A DNA stretch of 10,391 nucleotides. Source: JAFGIT01 sp016929465 [NCBI: Candidatus Coatesbacteria bacterium] (GTDB lineage Bacteria > B130-G9). The translations under genes were made by a program, and so were the position numbers. The DNA is taken from assembly GCA_016929465.1 (NCBI GenBank), contig JAFGIT010000237.1, positions 1 to 10,391 of the forward strand, written 5' to 3'. Shown here in pieces: positions 1 through 10,391 of the stretch; position 1 is the first letter of the stretch, and every line of letters starts with the position of its first letter. The notes under the pieces were generated by a model. It was not told the DNA's origin. It ran no database searches and worked only from the letters and a program-made list of their open reading frames with translations.

Positions 1-30
1 AGGAATGGAGTCTTCATATAACGCGGTCCC

Positions 31-1140
31 TCAGGCGAACTGGCTCGGACGTCTCAGCAGCAGTCGGCGTTCCATCTCGAATGCGGCAAACTGCTTAGAG
101 AGCAGCGCAAGAATTTCTCTTCCGAGTGGTGTTAGCACCAAGGGCACCCCCGGAGAGGGCCGGTGCTCGCACAAGCCCATCTCGCAGGCATAATTCCCAT
201 ACCACGCAAAGGACGATTTCTGAGAGCAATTCGCCCAGCGGCTCTTGGAGTTGCAGAGCTCCACAAAGCTGTTCATCTGCGATTCCGCAGACACGATCGC
301 CTGGTCCTCTGAATTTTCGACGGCTCTCAGGATACAGAATATGCCGAATTTGTGGCCATTGGTGCAGCGAGCAGCCGAGAGGCCGGCGATGAGAATCCTT
401 CTCTGACGTGGCGAGACCGTCCAGACAAGGGATTTATCTGAAGAGACGGCATAGGCCTTCCCGAGCTCGGTCAGAATTATTCCGCCATCGCCACGCTCGA
501 GCAGACCGAAGCTCTCTCCAAAGCGCACCCACAGCTTGGCACGATGTGCCGGATTCCGAATCTGACGTGGATTCTTCGCCACATTAGGGACATTCTCCAT
601 AATCTCTCGAAATGTCACTCGCGTGCGCTTTGCCATAAATGCGAAGAAACCATTCATGTAAGAGAGCTTTGCGAAACCGGCAATCGCAGGTTTGGGACAA
701 TCGAGACCGAGACGCTTCTCCTCCTCCGCCTCGAGCGATTCCGCCAGCTGAACGATTTTGCTTGCCTCGAAGCGGACACGATAGAGCGGAGGGCCGTAGC
801 GAGGAAGCGACCTCGGAAAGCCCTCGGCGAAGTGGACGCCTATTACGCTCGAAAATGAGAACCGCTCCGAATAGACATCGACGTAAGAAACGAGGCGGTC
901 GTAGTGGTCTTTGTTCGCAATGCCGAGTTGCAGCTCCAAAAGGACGAGCAGGTTGCGGGCCCTCTCGCGAAAGGCAAGGTCTATTCGACCGGTCTCGCAG
1001 ACATCCTCGCACTGCTCAACCTCCAACGATGAGACCGGAAGGCGCCTCTTCAATAGGTGGGATTCGACTATTTGCGGATAGCGAAACAAGATGTCCTGAA
1101 TAGTCTTCTCATCTATGTCCTGTCTCTGTTGCCACGTCAT
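31..1140 (-). CDS. Probable nuclease with PD-(D/E)XK-like N-terminal domain and winged-helix-like C-terminal part
   Basis: A 369-residue protein of no family I can name. The N-terminus looks like the NucS/DUF91-type restriction-endonuclease fold: a helix with Glu12, then GRID (Asp54), then the strand LLVLLELQ (Glu69-x-Gln71) and a helix containing HYDRLVSYV. This gives a D...ExQ core in which Gln replaces the usual Lys. Some PD-(D/E)XK-like families (for example DUF4268-type proteins) also carry ExQ, so the protein could still be active. The C-terminal part has two 'LTxLG' wing-like segments (near residues 223-227 and 336-340), suggesting winged-helix modules that bind DNA. The ATG lies 1 nt beyond the queD stop, with GGGA 5 nt upstream, so translation is probably coupled to queD. 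No methyltransferase or helicase is next to it. The fold assignment is inferred from motifs only. It could also be a DNA-binding regulator with a dead nuclease domain. Confidence 0.6.
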   Translation of the reverse strand: MTWQQRQDIDEKTIQDILFRYPQIVESHLLKRRLPVSSLEVEQCEDVCETGRIDLAFRERARNLLVLLELQLGIANKDHYDRLVSYVDVYSERFSFSSVIGVHFAEGFPRSLPRYGPPLYRVRFEASKIVQLAESLEAEEEKRLGLDCPKPAIAGFAKLSYMNGFFAFMAKRTRVTFREIMENVPNVAKNPRQIRNPAHRAKLWVRFGESFGLLERGDGGIILTELGKAYAVSSDKSLVWTVSPRQRRILIAGLSAARCTNGHKFGIFCILRAVENSEDQAIVSAESQMNSFVELCNSKSRWANCSQKSSFAWYGNYACEMGLCEHRPSPGVPLVLTPLGREILALLSKQFAAFEMERRLLLRRPSQFA

Positions 1141-1141
1141 T

Positions 1142-1510
1142 TCATTCCCAATAGGCAGCGCAGCAGTCGCGATTCTCCCAGATCGTGACCCGAGACATCA
1201 AGACCGAATACTCCCTTAGTCGCTCAGCCAAATCTTCATACAGCCACCTTGCGATGTTCTCGCTGGATGGATTGATCTCATCGAAGGGAGCCACTTCATT
1301 CAACATCCTGTGGTCAAGGAGTTGAAGGGCTGATTCCAGGGCTGTTTTCAGGTCTTTGAAGTCGATCGCGAGACCGGCGCTATTCAGCGACTCAGAGGTC
1401 ACGCTCATCTCAACCACCCAGTTATGGCCGTGAATATTCTCGCATTTGCCCCCGTAGTTGCGCAGCCGATGTGCAGCCGCAAAGGAGCTCTTCACCGTCA
1501 ATTCATACAT
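1142..1510 (-). CDS. queD: 6-carboxy-5,6,7,8-tetrahydropterin synthase (QueD/PTPS family)
   Basis: A 122-residue cytosolic enzyme of the 6-pyruvoyl-tetrahydropterin synthase fold. Bacterial QueD converts 7,8-dihydroneopterin triphosphate to 6-carboxytetrahydropterin, the second step towards preQ0 and queuosine. The zinc-binding histidines are visible as FAAAHRL (His14) and IHGHN (His27, His29). The catalytic Cys23 lies just before them, the Asp66-His67 pair is in LLDHRMLN, and the pterin-anchoring Glu112 is in VTIWE. The length matches short QueD proteins. The start has an AGAGG-like Shine-Dalgarno about 10 nt upstream. It is the middle gene of a minus-strand run, 75 bp after spoVG and 1 nt before the nuclease-like gene. 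No queC, queE, queF or folE is nearby, so the rest of the pathway must be elsewhere. A sepiapterin- or PTPS-like activity cannot be excluded, but Cys23 in its usual place favours QueD. Confidence 0.92.
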   Translation of the reverse strand: MYELTVKSSFAAAHRLRNYGGKCENIHGHNWVVEMSVTSESLNSAGLAIDFKDLKTALESALQLLDHRMLNEVAPFDEINPSSENIARWLYEDLAERLREYSVLMSRVTIWENRDCCAAYWE

Positions 1511-1539
1511 GCTTGCATTGCCTCTGATCCTATGTTTCT

Positions 1540-1582
1540 GCCGACTATCCCGAGGCTTCGATCGGAGAGAGGGGATATCGGC
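1540..1582 (-). other. Intercistronic hairpin between spoVG and queD
   Basis: In the transcribed sense, GCCGATATCCC begins 3 nt after the spoVG stop codon. It pairs with GGGATA-G-TCGGC after a 20-nt loop, giving an 11-bp stem with one bulged G. No T-run follows, so it does not look like an intrinsic terminator. A second CCGA in the loop could pair with the same downstream TCGG, allowing an alternative fold. It may serve as an RNA stability or processing element, or modulate expression of the downstream genes. Confidence 0.55.
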
Positions 1583-1585
1583 GTG

Positions 1586-1867
1586 TCATTCATCGAGTTT
1601 CGGGAAATACTCCCTGTATTTGGCCACAACAGCTTCGCGTATCTTGCTCTTGAGCTCTGCATTCTGTGCAGCGACGATTGGGACGAAATCACCGCCTTGT
1701 TGCCGCGTAGAGGGATAGCCCACGAAAAGGGCGCCATTCGGCTTGAGGACGACCTTGAAGCCCCTTATCATGAGTTCCCCGTCGAAAGTCACATCCGCGT
1801 ATGCGTGGACCTGACTAGTCCCTTCGCGGGATTCAAATGGATATATCCGAACATCACTCACTTCCAC
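1586..1867 (-). CDS. spoVG: SpoVG family protein
   Basis: A 93-residue protein with the conserved SpoVG start MEVSDVRIYPF, the strand run VHAYADVTFDGELMIRGFKV, then LFVGYPSTR and the C-terminal helix REAVVAKYREYF. Family members are small site-specific nucleic-acid-binding proteins. In Bacillus, SpoVG affects sporulation septation; in Staphylococcus and Borrelia it acts as a regulator. The homologue here probably has a regulatory role, since it is widespread in non-sporulating bacteria. The start is GTG, chosen because it begins exactly at the family's conserved N-terminus. No Shine-Dalgarno precedes it. Instead a -10-like TAATAT ends 6 nt before the GTG, which predicts a leaderless mRNA. It is the first gene of the minus-strand run spoVG-queD-nuclease, and an inverted repeat in its promoter suggests operator control. 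Confidence 0.92.
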   Translation of the reverse strand: MEVSDVRIYPFESREGTSQVHAYADVTFDGELMIRGFKVVLKPNGALFVGYPSTRQQGGDFVPIVAAQNAELKSKIREAVVAKYREYFPKLDE

Positions 1868-1873
1868 GGTGAT

Positions 1874-1903
1874 ATATTACTACGTTCTTAAGCCATTGGT
1901 CAA
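1874..1903 (-). promoter_or_regulatory. Sigma70-like promoter of spoVG, predicted leaderless
   Basis: Read on the minus strand: -35 TTGACC (5 of 6 consensus bases, at 1898-1903), an 18-nt spacer, and -10 TAATAT (4 of 6, at 1874-1879). Counting 7 nt downstream of the -10 box places the transcript start on the G of the GTG start codon at 1867. Confidence 0.65.
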
Positions 1904-1915
1904 GGGCGACCAATG
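1894..1915. promoter_or_regulatory. Candidate operator: 8-bp perfect inverted repeat over the spoVG -35 box
   Basis: CATTGGTC (1894-1901) and GACCAATG (1908-1915) are perfect reverse complements separated by 6 nt. A third, one-mismatch half-site GATCAATG follows at 1927-1934, in direct orientation with the second and 19 bp from it. The repeat covers the spoVG -35 hexamer, so a bound dimer would be expected to block that promoter. The binding protein is unknown; SpoVG itself is one candidate. Confidence 0.5.
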
Positions 1916-1954
1916 CCGCGCGGGACGATCAATGTCTCTGGGCCGAGTTCAACC

Positions 1955-1984
1955 TTGTTGATGGACCGGGGATTGAGATATACT
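1955..1984 (+). promoter_or_regulatory. Putative promoter of the DUF1232-comF-fliK-like operon, predicted leaderless
   Basis: The -10 hexamer is TATACT (5 of 6, at 1979-1984). A weak -35 TTGTTG (3 of 6, at 1955-1960) lies 18 nt upstream; TTGATG at 1958-1963 is an alternative, but with only a 15-nt spacer. The -10 box ends 6 nt before the ATG at 1991, the same geometry as the divergent spoVG promoter, and there is no Shine-Dalgarno in between. Confidence 0.5.
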
Positions 1985-1990
1985 CGTCCC

Positions 1991-2350
1991 ATGTCCAAGG
2001 CGAATAAGTCGAAAGAGAATAAGAAGCAAAGGAGCGATCACAGCCTGATACCGTCGGGCAATGTGCTCTCCTTCCTCTTCCACTTGCCGAATTTCGCGAA
2101 GCTTTATTGGAAGCTCTTCTGGGATAGGAGAGCGCCGAAAATCCCCAAGATTGTCCTGATCCTGGCCATAATCTATCTACTCTCTCCGATCGACCTGCTC
2201 CCGGATTTCGCCATCCCAGGAGTTGGCTATGTGGATGATCTCGCTCTTCTCGCGCTCGCGTTCAAGTATTTCATCAAGGCCATGCCGAAGGACCTGCTCT
2301 CCGAGAAGATCGAATCGATCGATAAGGACGCCAACGTCGGAAGACCATGA
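1991..2350 (+). CDS. DUF1232 (YkvA-like) small membrane protein
   Basis: A 119-residue protein. After a Lys-rich polar N-terminus (MSKANKSKENKK) come an amphipathic region (residues 24-45) and the DUF1232 signature SPIDLLPDFAIPGVGYVDD at 65-83. This is flanked by a hydrophobic helix (about 52-64) and a second hydrophobic stretch (about 84-96), so two membrane-embedded segments are likely. The family's function is not established; members occur in many bacteria, sometimes near stress or envelope genes. I chose the ATG at 1991 because the conserved region needs no more sequence upstream and the -10 hexamer ends 6 nt before it. An in-frame ATG at 1961 would add ten residues but also lacks a Shine-Dalgarno. 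The stop overlaps the comF start (ATGA), so it is the first gene of a coupled operon. Confidence 0.85.
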   Translation: MSKANKSKENKKQRSDHSLIPSGNVLSFLFHLPNFAKLYWKLFWDRRAPKIPKIVLILAIIYLLSPIDLLPDFAIPGVGYVDDLALLALAFKYFIKAMPKDLLSEKIESIDKDANVGRP

Positions 2351-3192
2351 TCCCGAATACTCGTCAGCTTGCCGAGACCGTTGCTGCCTCCCTGAACGCG
2401 CTGTTCGGACTAGCCCTGAACTCCCTGTGCGCGCTCTGCGGCAAGCGGTCCAGTGCTGCTATATGCCCGGGCTGCGTTTCGACATTCGAGCGACTCGAAT
2501 CAGCGTGCTGTCCCAAGTGCGGCCGGCCGAAATTTGCTCCGGGCTCATCGGATCACGCAAGGACGATATACTGCGGAGAATGCGAGGAGCGCCGTATCGA
2601 CCGTCGCAAAAGATGGTATTTCGACCGCGCCGTGTCGCTCTTCCTATATGAGGGGCGCATGAGGGAGGCGATATTGACGCTCAAGTATCGGAGACGATTC
2701 AGGATAGCCGATGTTCTCGGAGCTCTCTTTGCCCAATACTTCCCCCATCGGCTAATCTGCGAATCTGTCGAGGCAAGTTCAGAGTTCAATGTCGTCATAC
2801 CGGTGCCTCTGCATATTTCCCGGCTGATGGAACGAGAATTCAATCAGGCTGCAATTCTCGCCAGGTATGTCGCCGAGGCGATGTCTCTTCGAGTATCGTA
2901 TGAGGTCCTCGAGAGGACGAGGGCGACGGCACCGCAGTGGACGCTGACAAGCATTCAGCAAAAGATCGAGAACGTTAAGGGCGCATTCAAGGTCAGGCGC
3001 CCCAAGGCGATCAAGGACGCGAAGATACTTCTTATCGACGATATATTCACGAGGGGCGCAACCGCGAATGAATGCGCGAAGACACTCATGAAAGCGGGAG
3101 CCGGCTCCGTGGTTGTGGGCGCGCTCTCAACTCCGCACCTCGGCCATGATACGCCTGGTGCCGCCTATGAATCTGTGGAGCAGCGACCTTGA
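2347..3192 (+). CDS. comF: ComF family phosphoribosyltransferase-like protein
   Basis: A 281-residue protein with the double zinc-finger plus phosphoribosyltransferase layout of ComF/GntX proteins. The first zinc site is CALC...CPGC (Cys28, 31, 40, 43). A second Cys group follows: CCPKC (Cys54, 55, 58) and CGEC (Cys76, 79). The PRTase domain contains the PRPP loop ILLIDDIFTRGAT (residues 227-239, acidic pair Asp231-Asp232). It is preceded by the family's TxxQWTL...NVKGAF segment, which positions the nucleotide site. In competent bacteria ComF takes part in DNA uptake and in processing single-stranded DNA; in others its role is unclear. No comE or pil genes are adjacent. GGAAG lies 5 nt upstream of the ATG, and the start overlaps the preceding stop by ATGA. 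Its own stop overlaps the TTG of the next gene. It is somewhat longer than typical ComF (about 230-240 residues), with extra sequence at the N-terminus and a tail past the PRTase domain. Confidence 0.9.
   Translation: MIPNTRQLAETVAASLNALFGLALNSLCALCGKRSSAAICPGCVSTFERLESACCPKCGRPKFAPGSSDHARTIYCGECEERRIDRRKRWYFDRAVSLFLYEGRMREAILTLKYRRRFRIADVLGALFAQYFPHRLICESVEASSEFNVVIPVPLHISRLMEREFNQAAILARYVAEAMSLRVSYEVLERTRATAPQWTLTSIQQKIENVKGAFKVRRPKAIKDAKILLIDDIFTRGATANECAKTLMKAGAGSVVVGALSTPHLGHDTPGAAYESVEQRP
3177..3180 (+). promoter_or_regulatory. Shine-Dalgarno deciding the TTG start of the FliK-like gene
   Basis: GGAG lies inside the end of comF, exactly 8 nt before TTG at 3189. It favours this start over in-frame ATGs at 3231 and 3243, which have poorer upstream sequences. 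Confidence 0.6.
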
Positions 3193-4349
3193 GTATCGTT
3201 GGCGGAATAGACCGGCTGATAGTCGGCCAGATGCGGATTCTGATGAAGGACCAAGACACCCTTCCGAGTCTGAGCCTGAAGGTCGGAGACCTGCTCAAGG
3301 GGAAGGTCCTTAAGTTGCTGCCCGATGGGCGAGCGCTCATCTCGATCAAGGGAGCGAACATCCTGACGAGGCCCAAGATGTCGCTCGCGCCGGGAGAGGA
3401 GATTTTCGCGAAGGTTCAGAGCCTCGGCAGCGAGATTACGCTCGGCTTATTGTCGAAGCAGGCGAAGCTCCAGAACGATTTCCTGCAGGTTCTCGGGAGG
3501 GCGTGGCAGCAAAATTCCTCTATTTCAAAGCTGGCTGAGGGGCTGGCAAAGGTCGCCACCTCCCTTAAGTCCGCCGATGCCCTCAAATCGAACGAGCTAT
3601 CGACACTCGACAGAATACTCACGCTGCTCACGGGGGTAGAGGGTAGAGACGCATCCGCAATTGCGAAACGCCTCGTGGGCCTCGCCCGAGCGCTCGGATT
3701 AAATCACGAGGCGTCGATTGCGAGGGCAGTAGCGCTCGGCACGCCGGTCATTATCCTGAAGAGGCAACTTCAGAAGACGATGAAACCGAATGTTGAGAAA
3801 TTGATAAGTATGGTCTCAAGGCGGCTCTCCGGAGAAGCAAAAGTCGAGGAAGGAATAAAGGCGCAATTGGAGAGGCTTTTGTCACTTTGCGGTGACATTC
3901 GAGATAACGTGGAATTCCAGCAGTTGGCGAACCACTTCCTGAGGCAACGTGGAGCGCAGCTCTACATGCAAATGCCTCTCCTCTGGATGGGCGAAGACGG
4001 GCTCGCGGAGCTGACAGTTCGCTCCAAGAAAGATGACGCAAAAGAGGGGCAAATTGACCCCGATAACTGTCAGTTTTCGGTCTCAATAGAGCTTTCTGGT
4101 CTAGGGAGGGTGAAGGCAATAGCAGCCGTCAGCAAAAAGCGTATATCTTGCCTCCTCGCGACCGAGAAGAAAGCGATAAGGGAATTCATCGCAGAGCACT
4201 CGCAGATACTCGCGGATGGTCTGAATGCCGCTGGATTCGAGGTCTCCGACATAAAGGCGATGGTGAGCTCCGAGCCGCTCGAACGGCAGTTCGAGGCCTT
4301 CGTGCAGATGTTTATAGCCCAGGGACCGGCCTTTGACGTTACAGTGTAA
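3189..4349 (+). CDS. FliK-like protein with C-terminal Flg_hook domain
   Basis: A 386-residue protein with three parts. Residues 27-90 form a small beta-rich module (LKVGDLLKGKVLKLLPDGRA...SLGSEITLGLL) that is typical of the N-terminal part of many FliK-like proteins. Residues 95-255 are helical and charged. Residues 257-360 resemble the Flg_hook domain (PF02120): hydrophobic strands LYMQMPLLW and AELTV, then ELSGLGRVKAIAAV, a strand pair, and a helix ending in LNAAGFEVSDIKAMV. In FliK this domain contacts FlhB and switches export specificity. No flagellar or type III export genes are visible here, so it is either an isolated flagellar gene or a paralogue with another job. The TTG start overlaps the comF stop (TTGA) and has GGAG 8 nt upstream; ATGs at 3231 or 3243 would lose at most 18 residues outside the domains. 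It has no signal peptide or membrane helix. Confidence 0.7.
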   Translation: MSIVGGIDRLIVGQMRILMKDQDTLPSLSLKVGDLLKGKVLKLLPDGRALISIKGANILTRPKMSLAPGEEIFAKVQSLGSEITLGLLSKQAKLQNDFLQVLGRAWQQNSSISKLAEGLAKVATSLKSADALKSNELSTLDRILTLLTGVEGRDASAIAKRLVGLARALGLNHEASIARAVALGTPVIILKRQLQKTMKPNVEKLISMVSRRLSGEAKVEEGIKAQLERLLSLCGDIRDNVEFQQLANHFLRQRGAQLYMQMPLLWMGEDGLAELTVRSKKDDAKEGQIDPDNCQFSVSIELSGLGRVKAIAAVSKKRISCLLATEKKAIREFIAEHSQILADGLNAAGFEVSDIKAMVSSEPLERQFEAFVQMFIAQGPAFDVTV

Positions 4350-4361
4350 CAAAGCTACACT
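4333..4361 (+). promoter_or_regulatory. Sigma70-like promoter for glcD and downstream genes
   Basis: The -35 box TTGACG (5 of 6, at 4333-4338), a 17-nt spacer and the -10 box TACACT (4 of 6, at 4356-4361) overlap the last codons and stop of the FliK-like gene. A transcript would start near 4368 and have a leader of about 52 nt with the AAGGTGG Shine-Dalgarno of glcD. Confidence 0.55.
4338..4350. promoter_or_regulatory. Candidate operator palindrome in the glcD promoter spacer
   Basis: GTTAC-AGT-GTAAC is a 5-bp inverted repeat lying between the -35 and -10 boxes, where a bound repressor would block RNA polymerase. It also spans the last codons and stop of the FliK-like gene, so part of the pattern may be chance. 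Promoters of glcD-type genes are often controlled by GntR- or LysR-family regulators, but no regulator gene is in this window. Confidence 0.35.
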
Positions 4362-4419
4362 CTCCGGCGTTGATCCTTTTGATGCAGCGTTTGATTTCAA
4401 CTCCAAGGTGGTCTGATAT

Positions 4420-5790
4420 ATGGACAACAATCTCAAAAAGGAATTCAAGAGCATCGTAGGAAGTAGAAACTACAGTGATGGCGAGGCCGAGCGATTCTGC
4501 TACTCCTACGATGCGACGAGGCTTCAATATAGGCCCGATATAGTTATCTTCGCCGAGAATACCGAACAGGTTGTCCGGATAGCGAAGCTCGCGAACGAGA
4601 ATCGGATACCACTATTTCCAAGGGGGGCGGGTTCAGGATTCTCAGGAGGCTCTCTCCCCGTGAAGGGAGGAGTAGCGCTATGCCTGACCAAGATGAATCG
4701 GATAAAAGAGATCGACGTTGCGAATCTCGTTGCGACCGTTGAGCCCGGCGTGGTCAATGCAGACCTCAGAAGGGCGGTCGAGGCTAGAGGCCTATTCTAC
4801 CCGCCAGACCCCGCCAGTCTGGAATTCTCGACTATCGGGGGAAACGTGGCGGAATGCGCTGGGGGGCCAACATGCATCAAATACGGCGTCACCAGGAGTT
4901 ATATTCTCGGCCTGGAGGTCGTGCTCGGAACAGGGGACGTGATACGACCGGGAGGTGTACTGGTCAAGAACGTCGCGGGCTATGACCTGGTCAGGCTATT
5001 TTGCGGCTCCGAGGGCACTCTCGGAATAATCACTGAGATCAATCTGCGGCTGATCCCTCTGCCCGAAGGCAAGACGACGATAATGGCGATCTTCCCGTCG
5101 GTGGAGCAAGCCGCCAAGACAGTCGCACGGACCGTTCAGTCTCGAATATTGCCGGCTGCTCTCGAATTCATGGACGCAACATGTATCATGGCAGTTGAGA
5201 GATACAAGAAGATAGGTCTTCCGACGGACGCCGGCGCCGTCCTTATAATAGAGGCGGATGGGCCGGCGCGGGTACTTGCGGCTCAGCGCGAGCGTATTGA
5301 GTCGCTGTGCCGGGAGTGCGGTGCTATTTCCGCCGCATCCGCCGATGACGAAAAAGAGAGAGAGAATCTCTGGCAGGCGAGGCGCGCCATCTCCTCAGCT
5401 GTATCGAGCCTTGCTCCCAGAAAAGTGAACGAAGATGTCGCTGTGCCACCTGCTCAGATTCCCGAGCTCTTGCGCAGAATTGATATCGTTGCGAAAGAGA
5501 TGGACCTCGTCATCGCCAATTTCGGCCATGCGGGGGACGGAAACATCCATGTCAATATACTCTACGATCCAGATGTGCAAGGCATGCAGAAGCGAGCGGA
5601 GGACGCTGCCGAGAGAGTCTTTGACATCGCATTGGAGCTGAATGGGACCATAACCGGCGAGCACGGAGTCGGGATCACGAAGGCGGATTTTCTGGAGAAG
5701 CAGATAGGGCGAAAGCAAGTGGAACTGATGCGTGCATTAAAGGGAGTCTTCGATCCGAATAACATCATGAATCCGGGCAAGATATTTTAG
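4420..5790 (+). CDS. glcD: FAD-linked D-2-hydroxyacid dehydrogenase (GlcD/D-lactate dehydrogenase family)
   Basis: A 456-residue cytosolic flavoenzyme of the vanillyl-alcohol-oxidase fold. It is expected to oxidise glycolate, D-lactate or a similar 2-hydroxyacid to the 2-oxoacid. The FAD-binding half shows PRGAGSGFSGGSLP (67-80), TIGGNVAECAGGP (138-150) and GYDLVRLFCGSEGTLG (187-202). The C-terminal FAD-oxidase domain has the substrate/metal segment NFGHAGDGNIHVNI (367-380), GEHGVG (413-418) and the closing FDPNNIMNPGKIF. The length is close to that of family members (about 460-500). The start is ATG at 4420 with AAGGTGG 8 nt upstream. GlcE and GlcF, the usual partner subunits, are absent; the next gene is ispG, 14 bp away. 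The substrate cannot be decided from sequence. The electron acceptor may be an ETF, a separate Fe-S protein, or the PduS/RnfC-like protein two genes downstream. Confidence 0.92.
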   Translation: MDNNLKKEFKSIVGSRNYSDGEAERFCYSYDATRLQYRPDIVIFAENTEQVVRIAKLANENRIPLFPRGAGSGFSGGSLPVKGGVALCLTKMNRIKEIDVANLVATVEPGVVNADLRRAVEARGLFYPPDPASLEFSTIGGNVAECAGGPTCIKYGVTRSYILGLEVVLGTGDVIRPGGVLVKNVAGYDLVRLFCGSEGTLGIITEINLRLIPLPEGKTTIMAIFPSVEQAAKTVARTVQSRILPAALEFMDATCIMAVERYKKIGLPTDAGAVLIIEADGPARVLAAQRERIESLCRECGAISAASADDEKERENLWQARRAISSAVSSLAPRKVNEDVAVPPAQIPELLRRIDIVAKEMDLVIANFGHAGDGNIHVNILYDPDVQGMQKRAEDAAERVFDIALELNGTITGEHGVGITKADFLEKQIGRKQVELMRALKGVFDPNNIMNPGKIF

Positions 5791-5791
5791 C

Positions 5792-5796
5792 GGGAG
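5792..5796 (+). promoter_or_regulatory. Shine-Dalgarno deciding the TTG start of ispG
   Basis: GGGAG (5792-5796) leaves 8 nt before TTG at 5805. The next candidate, GTG at 5814, has no good Shine-Dalgarno. The geometry matches that of the other TTG-start gene, at 3189. Confidence 0.6.
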
Positions 5797-5804
5797 ACAC
5801 TCTA

Positions 5805-6893
5805 TTGCAGCAGGTGAACGAAAAGCGGCGGAAAACGAAAGCGATATCGATAGGAAATGTGCCGATTGGGGGGGATTCGCCCATATCGGTGCAATCCATG
5901 ACCAAGTGCGAGACCAGCGACCGTGGTGCTGTTCTCGACCAGATTCGCTCGCTCGCAACGGCCGGATGCGACATCATCCGCCTCGCCATCCCAGACGAGT
6001 CCTCAGCGAGGGCGATCGAGAGAATATGCAAAGCGAGCCCGATTCCCGTTGTCGCGGATATCCACTTCGACTATCAGCTTGCGTTGATAACCATCGCGGG
6101 CGGCGTGGATGCAGTACGAATAAATCCCGGCAATATGAAGAGAGAAAGCCACGTGAAGGCGGTGGCCGACGCGGCCCAGAAAGCGGGCATACCGATCCGA
6201 ATAGGTATAAACAGCGGCTCATTAGAGAGATCGCTCCTGAAAAAATACGGCGGGCCGACAGCTGAAGCGATGGCAGAGTCCGCAATGATGTGCGCGAAGA
6301 AATTCGAGGGATGGGGCTTCAAGGACCTGAAGCTGTCGCTCAAATCGCACGATGTCGCCGAGACGGTATTCGCCTACAGGAAGGTTGCCGCGGTGTGTGA
6401 CTATCCTCTTCATCTAGGCATTACTGCAACCGGGGCGGGGCTGGAGGCGAAGCTGAAATCCGCGGTAGGAATTGGGGCTCTTCTGATCGACGGGATCGGA
6501 GATACGATAAGAGTCTCCCTCTCTTCCGAGCCCGAGGAGGAGGTTGTCGTGGGCCTCGCGCTATTGAAAACGCTCGGATTGCATCCGCGCGGCCTTGAGC
6601 TCGTAGCCTGCCCAACCTGCGGCAGGTGCAAGGTTGACCTATTGAATTATCTCGAAATCGTGAAGAAGGGCCTCTCCGGAATTCAGGGCGAGATAAGCGT
6701 GGCGGTCATGGGCTGCGTGGTCAATGGTCCGGGGGAGGCCCGACAGGCGGATATCGGAGTTGCCTTCTCGGATGATGGGACCGCTAGCGTATTTCGGGAC
6801 GGCAGACACTACGCATCTGGCCCGGCAGGCGAGATGCTCGAGCGCCTGATTGATGACGCCCGTCGTCTTGCTGAGGAGAGGAGAACTCAATAG
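5805..6893 (+). CDS. ispG: 4-hydroxy-3-methylbut-2-en-1-yl diphosphate synthase (IspG/GcpE)
   Basis: A 362-residue cytosolic [4Fe-4S] enzyme of the MEP pathway. It converts 2-C-methyl-D-erythritol 2,4-cyclodiphosphate to HMBPP using two electrons from ferredoxin or flavodoxin. The TIM-barrel half starts with KAISIGNVPIGGDSPISVQSMT, followed by ADIHFDYQLAL, RINPGN and RIGINSGSLE. The C-terminal domain carries the cluster ligands Cys269 and Cys272 (CPTC), Cys304 (GCVVNGPGEA) and Glu311, which match E. coli Cys270, Cys273, Cys305 and Glu312 with an offset of one. The length matches bacterial IspG without the large insertion of plant forms. The start is TTG with GGGAG at good spacing. One oddity: the usual TEAG motif reads ITATG (residues 206-210), with Ala208 where Glu is expected. 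It lies 14 bp after glcD and 57 bp before the PduS/RnfC-like gene. Confidence 0.96.
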   Translation: MQQVNEKRRKTKAISIGNVPIGGDSPISVQSMTKCETSDRGAVLDQIRSLATAGCDIIRLAIPDESSARAIERICKASPIPVVADIHFDYQLALITIAGGVDAVRINPGNMKRESHVKAVADAAQKAGIPIRIGINSGSLERSLLKKYGGPTAEAMAESAMMCAKKFEGWGFKDLKLSLKSHDVAETVFAYRKVAAVCDYPLHLGITATGAGLEAKLKSAVGIGALLIDGIGDTIRVSLSSEPEEEVVVGLALLKTLGLHPRGLELVACPTCGRCKVDLLNYLEIVKKGLSGIQGEISVAVMGCVVNGPGEARQADIGVAFSDDGTASVFRDGRHYASGPAGEMLERLIDDARRLAEERRTQ

Positions 6894-6896
6894 AAT
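6868..6896 (+). promoter_or_regulatory. Weak candidate promoter before the PduS/RnfC-like gene
   Basis: TTGCTG (3 of 6, at 6868-6873), a 17-nt spacer and TAGAAT (5 of 6, at 6891-6896) overlap the ispG 3' end. The transcript would start near 6903 with a leader of about 48 nt. The -35 box is weak, so read-through from the glcD promoter is equally likely. Confidence 0.25.
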
Positions 6897-6950
6897 GTCC
6901 CATCGGGGCCGCTTGAACGACCGTGAATAACTAGAGGTCGAGTTAATCTG

Positions 6951-8279
6951 ATGCAGAACCACAGACTGACTGCAGAGAAGGTCAGAGACGCCGGCGTCAT
7001 CGGTGCTGGGGGAGGGGGATTTCCGACACACGTAAAGCTCTCAGCGAAGGCGGACACTCTGATCGGCAATGGTGCGGAATGCGAGGCGCTCTCATATAGT
7101 GACCAGGCATTGATGCTACATCGGCCCAAGGATATCCTCGATGGTCTTCTCCTGGGAGCCGAGGCGGTGTCCGCTGGACGGGTCGTTCTTGCCCTCAAGA
7201 AGAAATTTTCAGGGCAAATCGCCCTGTTCAAGAAGCTCATGTCGGAAGGCGCATATAGCGGCATTGAATTGCTGCTCCTTCCTGACGTCTATCCCGTGGG
7301 CGACGAATTCGTTCTGGTCTATGAGGCGACCGGCCAGGTTGTCCCTCAGGGGGGGATTCCGATAGACATAGGGGTGGTCGTGCAGAACGTCGCGACGCTC
7401 TTCAACATAGCCGAGGCAGAAGCTGGAGTTCCTGTGACAGAGAGGCTCGTTTCCGTCTGTGGCGAGGTGCCCAGGCCATCGGTCTTCGAAGTTCCCATCG
7501 GGGCGTCATTCAGAGGGGTTCTGCACGCGTGTGGGCTATCCTCGTTCTCGGGCCTCTCAGTGCTGGATGGCGGCGTCATGATGGGCAAGATCGTCGATCC
7601 GGACAATTCATATATATCCAAGACGACCTCTGCGATTGTCGTATTGCCGGAGGACTCGCCCCCGATTCTGGAGAGAACGTCTTCCCTGGACCGGGTCTTC
7701 AGAATCGCCAAATCCGTTTGCGACCAGTGCAATTTCTGCACGGAGCTCTGCCCCCGGTATCTCCTGGGCCACAGGTTGCGCCCACACCTCGCGATGCGTC
7801 GGATGGGATTCGAGCTCTCGCTCAGGGACGAGGTGCTCTCTGAGGCTCATTACTGCTCTGAATGCGGAATCTGCTCGCTCTATGCTTGTCCGCTGGGGAT
7901 CTCGCCGAGACGGGTCAACGTCCTTTTGAAATCGAAATACAAAAGGCCTAGAATCGACAAACTGGAATTCGAAGCAAGGCCCGAATACACCGACCGCCGG
8001 CTGCCAGCTGCAAGGCTCAAGAAAAGACTCGGCGTCGCTCGATATGAGGCCAGATTGCCCGAGTATGCCGGCCGGCTTGCAGTCGAATCAGTGAGTATCT
8101 CACTGAAGCAGCACGTTGGAAAGGTGGCCCTGCCCCTGGTGAAGGTAGGCGCATCCGCGAGTAAAGGAATGCTGATCGCCGATATTCCGGAGGGCGAGCT
8201 CGGCGCCAGGATACATGCGTCGATCGATGGCCATGTGACAAACATAACGAACGAAGCCATTACCATCGGCAATCCGTGA
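6951..8279 (+). CDS. PduS/RnfC-like flavin and iron-sulfur oxidoreductase
   Basis: A 442-residue soluble protein of the RnfC/PduS group. It has the Complex I 51-kDa-like FMN/NADH domain with GAGGGGFPTHVKL (18-30), NGAECE (40-45) and GGIPIDIGVVVQNVATL (134-150), then an SLBB-like segment (about 163-215). Two [4Fe-4S] motifs follow: CDQCNFCTELCP (Cys257, 260, 263, 267) and CSECGICSLYACP (Cys302, 305, 308, 313). The C-terminal 60 residues resemble a barrel-sandwich hybrid domain. The PRYLLGHRLRPH stretch after the first cluster is typical of PduS. PduS transfers electrons from NADH to reduce cobalamin; RnfC is the NADH subunit of the membrane Rnf complex. No pdu, eut or rnf genes are present, so the partner is unknown. 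ATG at 6951 has a GAGGT 12 nt upstream. It follows ispG and may be co-transcribed with the exonuclease gene 16 bp downstream. Confidence 0.88.
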   Translation: MQNHRLTAEKVRDAGVIGAGGGGFPTHVKLSAKADTLIGNGAECEALSYSDQALMLHRPKDILDGLLLGAEAVSAGRVVLALKKKFSGQIALFKKLMSEGAYSGIELLLLPDVYPVGDEFVLVYEATGQVVPQGGIPIDIGVVVQNVATLFNIAEAEAGVPVTERLVSVCGEVPRPSVFEVPIGASFRGVLHACGLSSFSGLSVLDGGVMMGKIVDPDNSYISKTTSAIVVLPEDSPPILERTSSLDRVFRIAKSVCDQCNFCTELCPRYLLGHRLRPHLAMRRMGFELSLRDEVLSEAHYCSECGICSLYACPLGISPRRVNVLLKSKYKRPRIDKLEFEARPEYTDRRLPAARLKKRLGVARYEARLPEYAGRLAVESVSISLKQHVGKVALPLVKVGASASKGMLIADIPEGELGARIHASIDGHVTNITNEAITIGNP

Positions 8280-8295
8280 GAGGCAGACGACTATT

Positions 8296-9174
8296 ATGGC
8301 GAAGCTAAGTCGCGAATCTCTGCAGCGTCTGGGAGAGCTGAATCGCAACCGACTGAAATCCGCGAAGGAACGGCCTGAGAAAGAGGAAATACTGCAACCT
8401 AAGGTCCCCCGCAGCCCCGGAGCGCGCAATCATTCGACTGCAGGATTCATTGATCCGCCGGATGAGATCACCGGTCGCGAGGTCGAGATGCCGAGTGGCA
8501 AGTTCTTGCTGATAAGAAGAGACCTGGCGGAGATCTGGGATGCGGCGGAGAGATTCGCCTCCCACTATTGCCTGGTATTCAATAGAGGCGCAATCGGTGT
8601 CGATATCGATTCGCTACACGAGGATGTGAGGCGATTTTGCGAGGTCGATCATAATCAGCTGCTCTATCTTGATATCGAGACATGCGGACTTTCGTCGGTG
8701 CCGGTGTTTCTTGTGGGAGTTCAGCAGTTGGTCGGGGAACGACTGGTTCTCGAGCAGTATTTGGCGCGGGATTACTCAGAGGAGAAGCCGATGCTCGAAT
8801 ATTTCTGGGGCAAGATGGCGGAATTCGAGGCGGTGACGACATATAACGGGAAGTCATTCGACGTTCCATTCTTGAGGGACAGAGCGGTCTATCACGGCGT
8901 GCCGCACGTCGTCCCTGGTTTCCATCTCGACCTCCTCCACGAGGCACGACGCAGATTCAAGGGACAATTCCCGAACTGCAAGCTTCAGACGCTGGAGGCC
9001 CGTCTCTGCAACAGATTACGGAGAGGTGACATCCCCGGTGAGTTGATCCCCAAGGCCTATCATGACTTCGTAAGGACCAAGGACCCGCAGTTGATCCGCA
9101 ATGTCATCCACCACAACGCGCTCGACATCGTGACGATGAGCGAGGTCTTGCTCAGGCTTCTTTCTGGTCTGTAG
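8296..9174 (+). CDS. YprB-like ribonuclease H-fold DEDDh exonuclease
   Basis: A 292-residue protein with a 3'-5' exonuclease domain of the RNase_H_2/YprB type. After a charged, probably disordered N-terminus (residues 1-55) come LYLDIETCGL (Asp126, Glu128), TYNGKSFDVPFL (Asn184, Asp189), LDLLH (Asp212) and HHNALDIVTM (His272-x4-Asp277). The last gives the DEDDh arrangement of metal-binding and catalytic residues. Family members are predicted nucleases acting on DNA or RNA ends; no specific substrate can be inferred. There is no fused helicase and no adjacent helicase gene, though in some bacteria this domain sits near a DEAD-type helicase. ATG at 8296 has AGAGG 12 nt upstream. It follows the PduS/RnfC-like gene by 16 bp, so it is the last gene of that run. 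Its 3' end overlaps the convergent glycosyltransferase gene by 23 bp. Confidence 0.88.
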   Translation: MAKLSRESLQRLGELNRNRLKSAKERPEKEEILQPKVPRSPGARNHSTAGFIDPPDEITGREVEMPSGKFLLIRRDLAEIWDAAERFASHYCLVFNRGAIGVDIDSLHEDVRRFCEVDHNQLLYLDIETCGLSSVPVFLVGVQQLVGERLVLEQYLARDYSEEKPMLEYFWGKMAEFEAVTTYNGKSFDVPFLRDRAVYHGVPHVVPGFHLDLLHEARRRFKGQFPNCKLQTLEARLCNRLRRGDIPGELIPKAYHDFVRTKDPQLIRNVIHHNALDIVTMSEVLLRLLSGL

Positions 9175-10391
9175 GCTTCACATTCCCGATGCGCAGGATC
9201 TTGCGCTTGATGAAATGGGCTGCTCTCCAGGTCCGGGTATTCGTTATGTCATGAATGTATCTCTGCTTGAGAGCCATTTCCACTCTGGCTTCTTCGAGCT
9301 CACGCTCCAGCCTACGGGACTTATCACGCCAGAAATCCACCTCGCCATGAATGCGGCCGGTCTCCTTTGCTATCGCGATGTGCTCGGCGGAGAGTCTCGC
9401 CATCTCTTCCGCGACGACCGCGATCAAGGTATTCGCTCTCTCCAGTTTGGATGGTGATTTGCAGAACTCGTCGAGCCCCTCGACACACTTGTCCCAGGTC
9501 AGGTTTTCGCGAACGAGTCTCTGTGCATTTAGAGCCTTCGGCCTAAGGACCTGCGGGTCGCGCAGAATACTCTCTGTGATCCTCCGCACTGCGCCCTTCT
9601 CGAGAGGATCGACGAGCCATCCTGCATCGTAGTGCTCGATGAGTTCTGATATCCAATAAAAGTTGGAGACTATGACCGGTATCCCCAGCCAGAGATAGGT
9701 CGTGGTCCGCATGGGATTTGCGAGTGCGCGTTCGAGATTTTGCTTCATGACGTCTATCGCACAGCCGTATTTGGCCCATTCAGTGGTGATCTCGCTGAAT
9801 GGGAAGAATCCTCTGACCTTCAATCGCTCGCTATTGCCAAGCCGCATCCTCGGGTCGATCAGCCTTGTGTTTATATCTTGCCAGGTCGGGTGCTTGCCCG
9901 TGAAGATCGTGAATTCTCCCTTTTTGGCTGCGTCGAGCGTTGAGAGAAGCTCCTTCTGGGCATCGAAAGGGTCCTGCCAGGGATAGAACATCCCTGCACA
10001 GATGAAGCTTGGTTCATCCCGCTCGGGAATCGGGGGCAAGTCCGGCGAACAGCAGATCGGTATTATCGTAAAATGCCTCTGTTGGATATCGAGCCCAGCG
10101 AGTATCCAGAAAGGTGTGTACCAGGGCAGTTGCCTCGGGCTGCCGATTATGAAGAAGTCGGCCCTCGCATATTGGTCGAGGCGGCCCATTATCACATCGG
10201 AGAAGTCTGAACCGGGCGTAAAGACTGCCTCGAGTTCGATATTCGCCGCGAGATCGAGGACCACGGGGAGTGAATTTCCAGAATAGAACCTCATGAGATA
10301 AGAGGTCGCGAATAGGATAATGTCGGCGCCCGAGGCCGCAACCTTCTCGTCGATATCGGTCAGGTCGTGCGCTAGAGCAAGAAACTCCTCC
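9152..10391 (-). CDS. GT-B glycosyltransferase with C-terminal coiled coil (5' end outside window)
   Basis: The frame is open from the window's right edge to the stop. The visible 412 residues contain no convincing start: the ATG at 10294 lies inside conserved-looking sequence (ADIILFATSYLMRFYSG), so the gene begins beyond the window. Features fit a GT-B (GT4-like) enzyme: the acceptor-side VVLDLAANIELE segment (43-54), the FICAGMFYPWQDP start of the nucleotide-sugar domain (129-141), and the donor-site helix PMRTTTYLWLGIPVI (226-240) followed by EL and GWLVDP. A long charged helix (about 317-380, many Glu, Arg and Lys) is probably a coiled coil, and the end has the TWRAAHFIKRKI tail (387-398) seen on many cell-envelope glycosyltransferases. 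It likely adds sugars during surface polysaccharide assembly at the inner face of the membrane. Sugar and acceptor are unknown. It converges on, and overlaps, the exonuclease gene. Confidence 0.85.
   Translation of the reverse strand, partial: EEFLALAHDLTDIDEKVAASGADIILFATSYLMRFYSGNSLPVVLDLAANIELEAVFTPGSDFSDVIMGRLDQYARADFFIIGSPRQLPWYTPFWILAGLDIQQRHFTIIPICCSPDLPPIPERDEPSFICAGMFYPWQDPFDAQKELLSTLDAAKKGEFTIFTGKHPTWQDINTRLIDPRMRLGNSERLKVRGFFPFSEITTEWAKYGCAIDVMKQNLERALANPMRTTTYLWLGIPVIVSNFYWISELIEHYDAGWLVDPLEKGAVRRITESILRDPQVLRPKALNAQRLVRENLTWDKCVEGLDEFCKSPSKLERANTLIAVVAEEMARLSAEHIAIAKETGRIHGEVDFWRDKSRRLERELEEARVEMALKQRYIHDITNTRTWRAAHFIKRKILRIGNVKPTDQKEA

Follow-up and report, generated by a model that had tools for sequence, protein, structure and literature searches.

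Probable leaderless starts of two divergent operons in a Candidatus Coatesbacteria genome

Leaderless genes, whose mRNAs lack a 5' leader, are well known beside genes that carry a Shine–Dalgarno (SD) sequence (PMC3160421, PMC12340547, PMC5397173, PMC9581028). Zheng et al. 2011 read as leaderless those genes whose start follows a TATAAT-like signal at a distance of about 10 bp (TA-led); they stand beside SD genes in 207 of 953 bacterial genomes, with TAtaaT as the signal in medium-GC groups (PMC3160421). The StartLink paper summarises predictions of leaderless transcription in 21.6% of bacterial species, with up to 40% of transcripts (PMC9581028), and Shell et al. 2015 describe a 5'-terminal GTG as supporting leaderless initiation in mycobacteria and poorly in E. 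coli (PMC4633059). Here, we analyse 10,391 nt of JAFGIT01 sp016929465 (Candidatus Coatesbacteria bacterium; assembly GCA_016929465.1, contig JAFGIT010000237.1, positions 1 to 10,391; hereafter the window), in which spoVG and a DUF1232 gene diverge from a shared spacer and each head an operon. With a probability of roughly 0.8, both operons start as leaderless mRNAs from a −10 element 6 nt before the start codon, as a small minority in a lineage that elsewhere relies on SD sequences.

The two loci resemble the TA-led genes of Zheng et al. 2011 in their TATAAT-like signal near the start and their coexistence with SD genes, whereas more than 20% of genes are leaderless in Actinobacteria and Deinococcus–Thermus (PMC3160421) and at most a few percent of the operon-first genes sampled here. 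The −10 motif adjacent to open reading frames in Deinococcus–Thermus likewise places TANNNT about 6–7 bp upstream, with no 5' untranslated region (Zhong et al. 2025, PMC12340547), but it concerns nearly one third of genes in D. radiodurans (PMC12340547); in the present genomes, few genes show the pattern, and most of these have a −35-like hexamer as well. The GTG start of spoVG fits the mycobacterial precedent, although mycobacterial leaderless genes are common and experimentally mapped (PMC4633059), whereas those described here are predicted from sequence. With other mixed genomes (PMC9581028) this lineage shares the coexistence of both gene types, and it would sit at their low end. A search for literature linking spoVG with leaderless initiation came down to a C. 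difficile paper that names the two separately, and a search on leaderless mRNAs in candidate phyla and metagenome-assembled genomes, with most subscription papers outside its scope, gave nothing recognisable on this lineage among the 15 of 384 papers listed, a weak negative. Leaderless genes in SD-using genomes are already known, and the present case would be a further conserved instance, in an isolated lineage.

Promoter-like elements at the two starts in three genera

The genome containing the window (G000; 3.19 Mb in 423 contigs, 86% complete, with the window as contig 376) was compared with G001 and G002, which belong to genera other than its own, and with G003, a congener of G001. These four form an isolated lineage within the 60 genomes searched (G000 included), as the three relatives share the family of G000 and the remaining 56 share only its domain. 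A scan with IspG, from which 80 loci were kept, gave identities of at most 53%, mostly to Actinobacteria.

The preliminary description of this DNA had placed the −10-like hexamers TAATAT and TATACT 6 nt before the start codons of spoVG and the DUF1232 gene, with −35-like hexamers at 18-nt spacers, in a 123-bp spacer between two genes without an SD. Direct reading of the sequence bears this out (spacer 1868–1990), with a caveat on the DUF1232 −35 hexamer that is weighed below, and no SD match of at least 4 nt, our criterion throughout, precedes either gene in the window. Promoter scores, counted as matches out of 12 to TTGACA/TATAAT, are 9 for spoVG and 8 for the DUF1232 gene, and spoVG alone of the two passes a 9-of-12 scan. 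Across the whole window that scan returns 6 sites compared to 5.1 in shuffles; thus, a single promoter-like site is not above chance and proves nothing alone. It is conservation in two other genera that lifts the pair above chance.

SpoVG is 84% identical to its G000 counterpart in G001 and 73% in G002, and the DUF1232 protein 69% and 63%, respectively; both proteins were searched for in G003 (83% complete) and neither was found. Written as −35 hexamer, spacer, −10 hexamer, distance and start codon, the DNA upstream of spoVG reads TTGACT-18-TATAAC-6-GTG in G001 (score 10) and TTGACG-17-TAAGAT-8-ATG in G002 (score 9), and that upstream of the DUF1232 gene TTGTCG-18-TATGAT-6-ATG and TTGCCC-18-TATGAT-7-ATG (score 9 in each). 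All six sites, for two genes in three genera, score 8–10 with a spacer of 17–18 nt and a −10 hexamer 6–8 nt before the start. Among 327 sampled operon-first genes, a promoter 5–8 nt before the start reaches a score of at least 9 in five (window spoVG included) and at least 8 in 17. The probability that the four orthologous sites not used for discovery all reach 9 is about 5 × 10−8 if they are independent, or 7 × 10−6 at the looser cut of 8, but both values are guides only because orthologues have a common ancestry, which tempers the case. Start-anchored identity over 60 nt upstream is 0.15–0.38 between orthologues, with about 0.25 expected by chance, and exceeds chance (2–3% of shuffles) only for the two G000–G001 pairs.

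The order spoVG–queD–(369-residue protein), which makes up the spoVG operon, is kept in G001 and G002. The other operon runs DUF1232–comF–FliK-like–glcD–ispG–rnfC-like–exonuclease; its first three genes keep their order in both relatives, through to the exonuclease gene in G001, and the G002 locus stops inside the FliK-like gene. Both relatives carry the two operons on separate contigs (C57 and C86 in G001, C54 and C68 in G002), so that the head-to-head arrangement is confined to G000 among the three, and the geometry does not depend on it. An SD match is present at six of the eight downstream genes: queD (4 nt), FliK-like (4), glcD (5), ispG (4), rnfC-like (5) and exonuclease (4). The SD sequences previously ascribed to glcD, ispG and the FliK-like gene are among these, whereas the one ascribed to the comF-like gene falls short of a 4-nt match, as does the DNA before the gene for the 369-residue protein.

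From these elements we infer where transcription starts and how the ribosome enters. Each operon would be transcribed from a housekeeping-type (sigma-70-like) promoter. RNA polymerase begins transcripts some 7 nt beyond the −10 box, which would put +1 on the opening base of each start codon, the G of GTG or the A of ATG; in both window genes this base is the sole purine 5–8 nt past the −10 hexamer and is preceded by C. Both start codons are of the types expected for leaderless bacterial genes. The resulting mRNA, with neither leader nor SD, would be translated by leaderless initiation, the ribosome binding the 5'-terminal RTG, and most of the downstream genes would keep their SD-like match. 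The leaderless arrangement would thus be tied to these operons and kept across three genera of a lineage that otherwise uses SD sequences and an intact anti-SD. The latter was seen in G001, where the 16S rRNA ends in GGATCACCTCCTTTCT; 16S rRNA was looked for and not found in the G000, G002 and G003 assemblies.

Leaderless starts among operon-first genes

The operon-first test drew on G000 (454 kb, 14% of the genome; 122 operon-first genes), G001 (513 kb; 146 genes) and G002 (199 kb; 59 genes), and the same script was run on a Deinococcus deserti plasmid as the positive and on E. coli as the negative control. Earlier runs on smaller samples (340, 232 and 199 kb) had the same outcome. Genes were called with our own caller, based on codon log-odds, which recovered 43 of 46 annotated stops and 31 exact starts in one 50-kb E. 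coli stretch and, in G001, put the start of spoVG too far upstream by 36 nt, an example of how gene-start prediction can err at leaderless genes. Such errors weaken the genome-wide test, but the D. deserti peak is still detected with this caller.

Operon-first genes with TANNNT 6–7 nt before the start number seven of 122 in G000, where other distances predict 2.7 and where spoVG and the DUF1232 gene themselves account for two, three of 146 in G001 (4.3 expected) and two of 59 in G002 (1.4 expected). On the D. deserti plasmid they number 13 of 114 (1.5 expected), and among 88 such genes in E. coli there are none (3.3 expected). When nearby alternative starts are allowed, the counts become 11 versus 7.0, 10 versus 10.0 and 3 versus 3.4 in G000, G001 and G002; when a −35 is required, they are 2 versus 0.4, 3 versus 1.2 and 0 versus 0.3. 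Pooled consensus promoters 6–9 nt before the start number 7 of 327 versus 4.4 expected (p = 0.15), or 5 of 325 versus 4.4 without the two window genes. Pattern counts over the whole of these genomes stay flat, at 57, 48 and 59 for 6–8, 14–16 and 22–24 nt (8, 11 and 7 for reversed-pattern controls), but they carry little weight alone because the pattern is a poor detector in a Corynebacterium genome (one match, and none for the reversed pattern).

SD matches are as frequent in operon-first as in internal genes of G000 (0.56 versus 0.54) and less so in G001 (0.47 versus 0.64) and G002 (0.46 versus 0.69), all above shuffles. The lower operon-first values leave room for a leaderless minority, although the difference in E. 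coli is similar (0.53 versus 0.66). Footprinting of reciprocal best hits started from 66 pairs, of which 23 were excluded as their start codons did not align and 31 of the remaining 43 as a member was not operon-first or lay at a contig edge. In the 12 pairs left, a number too small to yield an estimate, spoVG is the sole joint match at 5–9 nt, and at a score of 7 other distance classes hold 0–3 joint matches.

Three further genes behave like the window pair. They come from a candidate list of 34 rows drawn from the three samples, four of which are spoVG or DUF1232 genes and three of the other 30 of which were traced in relatives. For a wbqC-like gene, the arrangement is TTGACC-17-TAACCT-7-ATG in both G001 and G003, TTGACC-17-TAATTT-7-ATG in G002 and TTGACC-17-TAATTT-9-ATG in G000. 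Upstream of gatB, G001 has TTGAAC-16-TAGAAT-8 and G002 TTGAAC-16-TACAAT-8, and the weak matches in G000 and G003 (33–34%) were treated as paralogues. The −10 hexamer and distance at galT are TATAAT-7 in both G000 and G001 and TATACT-7 in G002, and the G003 match of galT reaches only 32%. In each close orthologue examined, the −10 is retained 7–9 nt before the start, and whereas the three genes were chosen for their score, their orthologues were not. Judging by these sequences, leaderless genes do seem to form a conserved minority.

Weighing the alternatives

The preliminary description had extended the leaderless reading from the two genes to operon-first genes of the organism in general, predicting a −10 excess and scarce SD sequences among them. 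The part that concerns the two genes is supported by the six sites in three genera; the generalisation is not supported, as TANNNT spacing, promoter score and distance histograms show no clear excess and SD matches are equally frequent in both gene classes of G000. In its favour are the operon heads described above (both of those in the window, and the wbqC-like, gatB and galT genes), the small G000 excess and the G000 and G001 counts with a −35, 5 of 59 genes in G002 at a score of at least 8 versus 1–3 at other distances, 10 pooled sites at 6–8 nt in a distance histogram that took in every gene class without a gap limit, and a p value of 0.03 when pooled consensus promoters are judged against 11–30 nt only, which becomes 0.19 without the window genes. 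Against it, the sharp TANNNT peak of the Deinococcus and Actinobacteria type is absent from the G000, G001 and G002 samples although the script detects that of D. deserti, the pooled excess shrinks without the window genes and the pattern counts are flat. We therefore reject a genome-wide rule as very improbable: two adjacent leaderless-looking genes do not make a leaderless genome, which corrects an over-general reading. Leaderless starts can also be stable and specific to particular genes, here in a lineage of which few relatives have been sequenced.

For the two operons themselves, several observations weigh against leaderless starts. The DUF1232 −35 hexamer (TTGTTG) is weak, agreeing with TTGACA at only three of six positions; the G002 DUF1232 gene has a further in-frame ATG 12 nt upstream that overlaps the −10; and the three additional genes were picked from 30 by good score rather than at random. 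In G001, an SD-like GAGGT (5 nt) lies 11 nt before the DUF1232 start, abutting the −10, and GAGG lies 1 nt before that of spoVG, motifs that would serve only if transcripts began further upstream. Together with the chance level of single promoter-like sites, they speak for transcripts that begin upstream and have leaders without an SD (S1-dependent or unstructured ones, for example), the near-start −10 being coincidental or unused; we regard this as quite improbable, given six of six sites at 6–8 nt in upstream DNA that is otherwise mostly unalignable. A leader of 1–5 nt, which would function much like none, is unlikely too: the −10 spacing of 6–9 nt among orthologues means that the predicted +1 may fall 1–3 nt before the codon in some (as at 8 nt in G002 spoVG and 9 nt in the G000 wbqC-like gene), but at either window gene no purine other than the initial base of the codon lies in reach. 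Fully leaderless starts are thus the reading we prefer. Whether selection keeps the spoVG, DUF1232, wbqC-like, gatB and galT operon heads leaderless, as a small translational class expressed according to the state of the ribosomes (such as 70S abundance or stress) and not to SD strength, is a more speculative matter, and we think it doubtful.

Neighbouring features and recurring elements

The features of the window are collected in Table 1. SpoVG exceeds the PF04026 gathering score (29.6) and reaches 50.7 against the NCBIfam equivalog PRK13259.1, below its cut-off of 108; the 369-residue protein has no Pfam or NCBIfam match.

Table 1. Window features, with positions, strands and supporting details
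Feature	Position	Strand	Details
spoVG	1586–1867	−	GTG start at 1867; PF04026, 63.4 bits; residue 1 aligns at orthologous starts
−10-like TAATAT of spoVG	1874–1879	−	Ends 6 nt (ATCACC) before GTG; counterparts in G001 and G002
−35-like TTGACC of spoVG	1898–1903	−	Spacer 18 nt; TTGACT in G001, TTGACG in G002
DUF1232 gene	1991–2350	+	ATG at 1991; PF06803, 46.4 bits; residue 1 aligns at orthologous starts
−10-like TATACT of DUF1232 gene	1979–1984	+	Ends 6 nt (CGTCCC) before ATG; TATGAT in G001 and G002
Weak −35-like TTGTTG of DUF1232 gene	1955–1960	+	Spacer 18 nt; TTGTCG in G001, TTGCCC in G002
queD-like gene	1142–1510	−	Second in spoVG operon; PF01242, TIGR03367; SD match of 4
Gene for 369-residue protein	31–1140	−	Third in spoVG operon; adjoins queD in G001 and G002 too; identity 54–67%
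comF-like gene	2347–3192	+	Follows DUF1232 gene; PF18912 zinc ribbon only; name from the preliminary description
Inverted repeat CATTGGTC-6-GACCAATG	1894–1915		Centred on spoVG −35 box; possible operator

The inverted repeat in Table 1 was considered as an operator shared by the divergent genes, an idea we did not build on: ATTGGTC-6-GACCAAT occurs once in the genome at 0–1 mismatch, and no similar repeat was seen in the DNA upstream of spoVG in G001 and G002.

Several promoter-like sequences recur in these genomes. Closely similar promoters opening with TTGACCCGGGAACGCT, with an ATG 6–8 nt past the −10, occur at G000:C246:1460, G002:C28:386 and G002:C48:1556; they are spread over two genera, with two copies in G002, and are candidates for a leaderless promoter or a repeated element. 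Promoter-like repeats ending in TTTACACACTTAATG, with an ATG 14–16 nt past the −10, are present on G002 contigs C97, C150, C195 and C205 and on G001:C114, and form a recurring element, which may belong to a mobile or multicopy family. At G000:C280:9080 and 20600, a related pair of promoter-like sequences with TAAAGTCGGC and a downstream ATG lies on opposite strands, 11.5 kb apart.
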